A stretch of 64,000 bases of DNA from Stenotrophomonas sp. SAU14A_NAIMI4_8 (lineage in GTDB: Bacteria > Pseudomonadota > Gammaproteobacteria > Xanthomonadales > Xanthomonadaceae), in assembly GCF_003086695.1 (NCBI RefSeq), contig NZ_CP025999.1, positions 1,715,680 to 1,779,679 on the forward strand, in the 5' to 3' direction. Made by a program: the position numbers and the translations under genes. Each line of letters starts with the position of its first letter. Positions within the stretch are counted from its first letter, which is position 1. Below, piece after piece: positions 9,123-41,729 of this stretch. The notes beneath the pieces are model-generated. The model saw only the letters and a list, made by a program, of their open reading frames with translations, did no database searches and was not told where the DNA came from.

Positions 9123-9226
9123 GAGGGGGCGGGCCACCCTGGCCTGGACCGTTGGCGCCAGGGATGGCGCCACCGAGCACCATGGATGGGCTTTGGCGTG
9201 TCCAGGCCAGGGTGGCCCGCCCCCTC
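9123..9226 (+). repeat. Clamped two-hairpin repeat element, copy A
   Basis: A perfect 27-bp inverted repeat (9123-9149 and 9200-9226) encloses a 50-nt core. The core has the hairpin GGCGCC-aggga-TGGCGCC, the spacer CCGAGC, and a second hairpin around CCATGGATGG, and ends in GGCGT. The element follows the sequence AACTGTCAG. Copies B (20922), C (41632) and D (19927) share the core but have entirely different arms. It fills most of the 384-bp gap between the sugar porter and tRNA-Glu; the rest of the gap (8953-9122) holds small GC-rich hairpins and no gene. Confidence 0.85.
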
Positions 9227-19926: not shown

Positions 19927-20034
19927 GTGGCCCTGCGGAGGGATTGCGCAGGGGACGCCGTGAATCCATCCCTGGAGGCTCGGTCGCGCCATCCATGGCG
20001 CTCACGCCCCTGCGCAATCCCTCCGCAGGGCCAC
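19927..20034 (-). repeat. Clamped two-hairpin repeat element, copy D
   Basis: Perfect 28-bp inverted repeat (19927-19954 and 20007-20034) around a 52-nt core. Read on the minus strand the core begins CGTGAGCGCC, has hairpin GCGCC-atgga-TGGCGC, spacer ACCGAGCC, second hairpin TCC-agggat-GGA, and ends GGCGT like the other copies. The minus-strand flank GGAAACTATC resembles the AACTGTC flank of copy A. It lies in the 309-bp gap between convergent genes (GacA-like and eda); no gene is seen in this gap. Confidence 0.85.
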
Positions 20035-20839: not shown

Positions 20840-20921
20840 GCTTTTGCCCTTGCCTTCGCTTTCGCTCTATTTGTGCTCTTCAACGATCACTTCGCGGCGT
20901 TGACGCGCCGGAGAGTGTCAG

Positions 20922-21027
20922 GAGGGCGCGGTCAGCCCCAGCCGGGACCGCAGGCGCCATGGATGGCGCCTACGAGCCCCCAAGGAGGGGTTTACGGCGT
21001 GTCCCGGCTGGGGCTGACCGCGCCCTC
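20922..21027 (+). repeat. Clamped two-hairpin repeat element, copy B
   Basis: Perfect 27-bp inverted repeat (20922-20948 and 21001-21027) around a 52-nt core: GGCGCCATGGATGGCGCC hairpin, TACGAGC spacer, hairpin CCCC-aagga-GGGG, then GGCGT. It follows TGTCAG as in copies A and C. It lies inside the edd-eda intergenic gap on the strand opposite to these genes, and is the main content of that gap. Confidence 0.85.
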
Positions 21028-21075
21028 AACCAGGAACCCCACCGCCGCGACAAACCCGCAACGCTCTTCAAACCC

Positions 21076-41631: not shown

Positions 41632-41729
41632 GGGGCGGTGTGGGTGGGCAGGACACGCCGCAAGTACGTCCCTGTAGGCTCGTAGGCGCCATCCATGGCG
41701 CCTGCGGTCCTGCCCACCCACACCGCCCC
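41632..41729 (-). repeat. Clamped two-hairpin repeat element, copy C
   Basis: Perfect 23-bp inverted repeat (41632-41654 and 41707-41729), extended by two further pairs after one mismatch. Read on the minus strand the 52-nt core is GGCGCCATGGATGGCGCC hairpin, TACGAGCC spacer, a second hairpin with stem TAC/GTA around AGGGAC, and GGCGT end; TGTCAG precedes it. It occupies the upstream side of htpG, in a 603-bp gap (41476-42078) that otherwise holds GTAG-type and GGGGTC repeats, further GC-rich hairpins (41880-41990) and no gene except the tiny frame at 42041. Confidence 0.85.

Follow-up and report, generated by a model that had tools for sequence, protein, structure and literature searches.

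Four inverted-repeat elements in the window

The window, a 64,000-nucleotide stretch of the Stenotrophomonas sp. SAU14A_NAIMI4_8 genome (contig NZ_CP025999.1, positions 1,715,680 to 1,779,679), holds four elements (A to D), each built of a conserved core between two outer arms that pair with one another. A preliminary description made from the letters alone had claimed all four, and all are present with the following coordinates and strands.

20922..21027, plus strand: element B (outer stem, 60-nt core, outer stem), covariance-model match of 102.7 bits
20945..21004, plus strand: conserved core of element B, GGAC...GTCC, a three-way junction
20959..20964, plus strand: hairpin 1 loop of element B, ATGGAT, with a C-G closing pair
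20982..20987, plus strand: hairpin 2 loop of element B, AAGGAG
19927..20034, minus strand: element D, the divergent partner of B, about 890 nt away across a predicted gene
9123..9226, plus strand: element A; two matched elements in 8 of the 30 fetched loci of this slot, own locus included
41632..41729, minus strand: element C; two matched elements in 16 of the 30 fetched loci of this slot, own locus included

In the search of the strain's own genome, the covariance-model match to element B spans genome positions 1736602-1736705. The outer pairing is perfect over 27 bp in A, 27 bp in B, 23 bp in C, and 28 bp in D, including the 4 bp that close the core, as had been proposed, and all four elements fold far better than 200 dinucleotide shuffles of their sequences (z of -11.2 for B, -9.6 for A, -9.2 for C, and -8.3 for D). 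The core was first put at 50 to 52 nt; we found about 60 nt (57-62 nt among the high-scoring copies). In hairpin 2 of element B, the minimum-energy fold shifts the pairing by one, giving the loop CAAGGA. That the elements encode no protein was borne out.

A dispersed and highly multicopy family

A BLAST search with element B gave 43 matches in the strain's own 4.48-Mb genome. BLAST against named loci agrees with the genus Stenotrophomonas, the top long matches being to S. cyclobalanopsidis (90% over 4170 bases) and S. maltophilia (91% over 2394). When a covariance model built from 37 copies was used instead, we obtained 133 matches, made up of 108 high-scoring elements (at least 76 bits), nine damaged elements, 13 antisense echoes of counted elements, and three weak matches, the last two groups being left out of the element count. 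The high-scoring count is at least 108 and may be low because 150 of 6513 first-look candidates were scored. The preliminary description had suggested a covariance-model search of genus genomes and would have counted a lack of further copies against its idea; more than 100 further copies were found in this genome. The elements are a real, widespread, and highly multicopy family.

The 117 elements fall into 75 clusters: 39 divergent (-,+) pairs, one (-,-,+) cluster, one (+,+) cluster, and 34 singles, with no (+,-) pair among them. The gap within the divergent pairs is between 130 and 260 bp in 31 of 39 cases. Outside Stenotrophomonas and Xanthomonas, neighbours within 400 bp at the named loci, counted by eye, are arranged as (-,+) in eight cases, (+,-) in two, and on the same strand in three. 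Relative to the neighbouring genes, which were predicted with a simple gene caller trained on the window, the 117 elements take four arrangements in 35, 34, 31, and 17 cases. With no shared orientation among them, we rejected a fixed role with respect to genes, and a cis function shared by the elements is not apparent.

Nine of the pairs, all with two particular arm types, belong to a common composite of roughly 500-600 bp. An outer GCAGGGCTGCAAGCCCTGC-type palindrome bounds it on either side, and it contains hexamer-like GTTGCC/GTTGACG tracts; SMAG-like GTAG palindromes lie in several composite spacers. Classified by a simple motif rule, five recurrent arm types cover 83 of 110 own-genome copies, and 27 fall outside them. 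The proposal that the arms are unrelated between copies is therefore correct for A, B, C, and D and does not extend genome-wide.

Some copies are interrupted by inserts. The hairpin 2 loop is broken directly after CATGG or CAGGG in five copies of the own genome and in three orthologous loci, either by a palindromic GGTGAGGGCGC... repeat or by TGAAGTGACCCCC..., which we take to be an insertion-sequence-like end. This loop looks like an insertion target. In hairpin 1, a palindromic insert of about 80-90 bases lies in the loop, between the CCATGG and GGCGCC halves, in three own-genome copies and three orthologs of locus A.

Conserved structure and loops that fit a CsrA/RsmA site

Read on the GGA strand, an element opens with a 5' flank in which CTGTC is usual. 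The arm that follows, about 22-28 bp long, leads through GGAC or GGGG to hairpin 1, whose loop is mostly ATGGAT; CGAG or CAAG then leads to hairpin 2, an ANGGAN loop on a 3-bp stem, which is followed mostly by ACGGCGT or GCGGCGT, then by GTCC or CCCC and the second arm. Among 37 own-genome copies, 98.5% of the cells of the three-way junction pair, compared with 78.8% in shuffles, and pairing falls to 37.5-49.1% when the partners are slid by one to three columns. Two-sided changes occur at 26 of 39 pairs in these copies, with a covariation of 0.503 against 0.144 when shuffled. In alignments fitted to the structure, covariation was 0.945 versus 0.195 shuffled for 32 rows, one of them antisense, drawn from 28 loci of the class, and 0.853 versus 0.173 shuffled for 63 rows from loci of named records, and a U.G wobble stands at the junction base in 61 of the latter 63 rows. 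The two-hairpin core on a variable outer stem first described for A to D is supported, and strong selection on structure, one of the explanations offered at that stage, is supported as well. The layout recurs in other genomes, where arms of 16-39 bp vary from copy to copy and 27 of 48 distinct elements are perfect along the arms.

A C-ANGGAN-G loop is found in hairpin 1 of 110/110 own copies and in hairpin 2 of 103/110; among the 48 distinct elements from other genomes, 43 have it in hairpin 1 and all 48 in hairpin 2. The distance from GGA to GGA is 20 nt in 141 of 146 cases. According to PMC7652899, CsrA/RsmA recognizes RUACARGGAUGU in hairpin loops, the hairpins mostly have at most four contiguous pairs, and CsrA bridges sites 10-63 nt apart with an optimum above 18 nt. 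The elements have two loop GGA sites within this range, and these fit RUACARGGAUGU in a relaxed form only: UACANGGANGU, which appears in about 1 in 10,000 shuffles, is found in the second hairpin of 64/110 own copies and 35/48 elements from elsewhere, and the exact 12-letter selected CsrA consensus is present there in 0/110 own and 8/48 other elements. Both loops fit the published CsrA/RsmA site, and binding is predicted from this fit.

Presence of csrA, which we found in 39 of 41 genomes (own included), proved uninformative as a correlate, as element-free genomes (G004, G007, and G017, for example) carry the gene too. The CsrA-sequestering RNAs RsmX/Y/Z, CsrB/C, and RsmU resemble the elements in having GGA in hairpin loops; they are dedicated RNAs with several sites. 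RsmU is described in PMC7694677 as an RsmA-binding RNA from the 3' region of the comEA mRNA in Xanthomonas. We rejected the element as a part of RsmU, since a model search of eight comEA loci placed none beside comEA: five loci gave no match, and in the other three the matches lay more than 1 kb away from that to comEA.

Relatives among annotated RNA families

Two Rfam families match the elements below their cut-offs, one on each strand. TwoAYGGAY (RF01731) matches nine places in the own genome, all nine on the sense strand of elements, the best at 40.3 bits (E 9.9e-5), so that no match reaches its gathering cut-off of 43 bits. It gave no match to window positions 20900-21050 at E <=10 and none in the window at E <=1; in the search of the own genome, element D has a sub-threshold match on the same strand at 25.4 bits. 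Among the matches listed for 16 loci, one locus, in a distant relative, was hit (35.3 bits). TwoAYGGAY, which belongs to clan CL00106 with RsmY, is like the elements in its variable outer stem, its two hairpins with CANGGANG-type loops, the AG that separates the hairpins, and the CGG that follows the second. It differs in that its model's second hairpin is long, whereas that of the elements has a 3-bp stem, and in that the elements are dispersed repeats with more than 100 copies in the own genome. In the elements, two hairpins share an outer stem; their ANGGAN loops, in which the first N is often a purine, agree only in part with AYGGAY. TwoAYGGAY is predicted to bind CsrA (PMC4333381) and its distribution is given, in a table of PMC2864571, as gamma-Proteobacteria, Clostridiales, and the human gut. 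Gammaproteobacteria, which lie in this range, hold the elements.

Ysr224 (RF02770) matches 71 places in the own genome, every one antisense to the GGA strand, and the best of these, at 43.4 bits, stays below its gathering cut-off of 70 bits, as does the match on the opposite strand of element D (33.5 bits). The letters of the Ysr224 model follow the reverse complement of the core and match around both loops; unlike the elements, however, the annotated strand has no GGA loops, and the model consists of one flank plus the core without the perfect outer stem. Ysr224 is temperature-responsive in Y. pseudotuberculosis and is among the most often annotated bacterial sRNAs (PMC9029176), and in Y. ruckeri it is multicopy, with 80-91% identity and differently expressed copies (PMC12112432). 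A relative's RNA thus does accumulate, but its annotated strand is the opposite one. This annotation counts against a purely sense-strand role, and it lowered our confidence.

The kind of RNA is thus already known in pieces, as TwoAYGGAY and Ysr224, and is functionally unproven; new here are the unification, the copy number, the paired layout, and the sequence-free clamp stem. In the open-licence literature, we found no paper describing the repeat as a Stenotrophomonas family. The preliminary description had missed both the loop fit to CsrA/RsmA and the two Rfam relatives. Many eukaryotic microRNA models also match the long stem below their cut-offs, and we rejected these as matches to a perfect hairpin.

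Orthologous loci and taxonomic spread

The genes flanking the elements were matched in 89 (B/D), 75 (A), and 90 (C) of 91 genus genomes, and the best 30 loci per slot, own genome included, were used. Elements occupy 26/30 B/D slots, 20/30 A slots, and 25/30 C slots, and the B/D slot holds two elements in 14/30 (for A and C, see the feature list). Within one slot, different species carry different arm sequences, and both arms are altered jointly. The comparison of orthologs recommended in the preliminary description came out against its refuting condition at three loci: both arms change together between species. At locus A, inspection by eye showed that several species without a model match retain stumps, fusions of the two inverted elements at CCATGG or GGCGCC, or exact in-loop inserts, and that a few species have no trace of the elements. 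In five orthologs of locus A, an inverted pair has been fused by a loop-to-loop deletion that left half of each element; in other species, only short palindromic arm stumps remain at this locus.

Across the genus, with at most 65 candidates scored per genome, elements were found in 27 of 36 other genomes and in 32 of the 61 genomes in that search, own included. Across the class, with at most 10 candidates scored per genome, 64 of the 369 sampled genomes carry them, as do 56 of 271 genera. Named carriers, among the matches listed, include Stenotrophomonas, Xanthomonas, Halopseudomonas, Pseudomonas, Marinobacter, Shewanella, Zobellella, and Rheinheimera. A search of 72,556 plasmid records with one element from another genus as the query gave no match. 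Elements also occur in records titled Bacillus subtilis SK7B5 and Klebsiella pneumoniae (a metagenome assembly), where contamination or mislabelling seems likely.

Proposed role

We observed a defined structure, covariation, a strand bias, a loop consensus, a high copy number, and a characteristic pair layout. The reading that accounts for them best, to which we give about an even chance, is that of a dispersed RNA element with dual CsrA sites, set in REP-like intergenic mosaics and acting as both a clamp and a sink; transcription in the own genome, CsrA binding, titration, and any clamp function are what we infer. The elements would act as RNA read from the strand with the ANGGAN loops. Upon read-through transcription, the two arms would close on each other as a clamp stem about 22-30 bp long that presents two short hairpins, and the C-ANGGAN-G loops, 20 nt apart, would suit the two RNA-binding faces of one CsrA/RsmA dimer. 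The clamp may also protect or process the RNA. Because only pairing would matter in the clamp, its letters would drift with complementarity kept, largely via G.U intermediates.

The genome has more than 100 copies, and more than half of these sit in divergent pairs in REP-rich intergenic mosaics. Read-through of such a pair from either side would give a transcript that carries one sense copy, last in order. The copies would bind CsrA at transcript ends and together form a dispersed CsrA sink. As a (-,+) pair that is read through gives one sense and one antisense copy, this layout could reconcile the strand on which Ysr224 is annotated with a role on the GGA strand.

Arm divergence and alternative explanations

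For the analysis of arm change, 217 elements were reduced to 141 distinct arm pairs by dropping those with N or with fewer than 18 of 22 standard pairs and by merging identical arms, and the arm pairs were joined by a minimum spanning tree in which 27 of 140 edges, those with more than four differences, were ignored. On edges with up to four changed pairs we counted 89 two-sided changes, of which 39 follow a G.U path and 50 are transversional; one-sided changes on these edges are 52 G.U, 9 A.C, and 37 other mismatches. A recount under slightly different rules gave G.U to A.C as 53 to 9. The bias has a p of 2e-8 in a sign test that ignores relatedness, and it recurs among the 48 distinct elements of other genomes (19 to 4, p 0.003). 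Because the arm mismatches are mostly G.U wobbles in one orientation, RNA of the GGA strand appears to be selected; strand-biased mutation could add in part to the G.U excess.

This strand bias bears on an account that we consider unlikely, if the most likely of the alternatives, namely that the elements are REP/BIME-like DNA repeats whose single-stranded or cruciform hairpins would serve their own spread and genome structure, with the loops kept for a DNA-binding protein or a trans transposase. Like REP, BIME, REPIN, and SMAG palindromes, the elements are intergenic, reach high copy numbers, and form inverted pairs; they also lie in composites bounded by further palindromes, their loops are exact entry points for unrelated inserts, and the fusions and stem stumps at locus A are typical of palindrome instability. 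REPs, however, are palindromes of 20-40 bp, mostly with GTAG or CGTC at one end (PMC3733652), whereas the elements are about 105 nt long with a three-way junction and a loop consensus. Moreover, the G.U over A.C bias and the fixed U.G wobble on one strand would be unexpected if both DNA strands counted, and the variable N positions within ANGGAN fit an RNA site.

The preliminary description had also put forward copying of one arm from the other, and inverted-repeat gene conversion or template switching would keep diverging arms perfect. Transversional two-sided changes cannot pass through G.U, so the 50 of 89 favour arm copying over stepwise compensation, and the perfect arms of those 27 elements from other genomes would fit it too, as would the recombinant, insert-bearing, and deletion-bearing forms common at locus A. 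At tree distance 1, however, one-sided changes outnumber two-sided ones by 38 to 18, and at distance 4 two-sided changes lead by 28 to 19. Because most differences between the nearest relatives are one-sided and two-sided ones become more frequent with distance, copying between the arms need not be invoked, and the 52:9 bias of the mismatch spectrum toward G.U in one orientation speaks against it, since strand-blind copying does not predict such a bias. Stepwise compensation of RNA is enough for most arm change; given the transversional share, some templated repair may contribute, and copying as the means by which the arms stay perfect is improbable.

We give the least credence to a transcript-end element that works without CsrA, in which the long stem would block 3' exonucleases or be an RNase III site and the loops would be conserved for another cause: an enzyme that reads structure alone, RNase III for example, would favour perfect pairing with no demand on the letters, as in these stems of mostly 22-30 bp, and Ysr224 is an accumulating RNA of a related element, though annotated on the other strand, but ANGGAN in both loops at a near-fixed 20-nt spacing is left unexplained, and the printed copies, by eye, have no T run in the 28 nt to the right of the stem. 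Since no T run follows, the elements are not standard intrinsic terminators.

Implications of a possible dispersed CsrA-binding family

The reading as a dispersed dual CsrA-site RNA element can be extended, tentatively and with less confidence than the reading itself, to a wider picture. Gammaproteobacteria may hold self-spreading, dispersed CsrA-binding RNA elements, more than 100 per genome in some, that tune global CsrA activity through copy number and read-through, and TwoAYGGAY and Ysr224 would be the two strands of one such family. Because the clamp stems are sequence-free, each copy would carry a barcode-like arm.

CsrA/RsmA is a global regulator whose known antagonists are a few dedicated RNAs, and about 200 candidate sites in one genome would amount to another means of setting the level of free CsrA. 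Through such a family, REP-like repeats would gain a connection to a named RNA-binding protein, and two Rfam families whose function is unknown or partly known would be brought together. A stem of free sequence present across many species would also offer a natural experiment on the turnover rate of paired RNA letters.

As a separate observation in the window, a hairpin at 39384-39470 matches a eukaryotic microRNA model on both strands (32.5 and 29.7 bits, below the cut-off); because both strands match, another strong inverted repeat is likely there.
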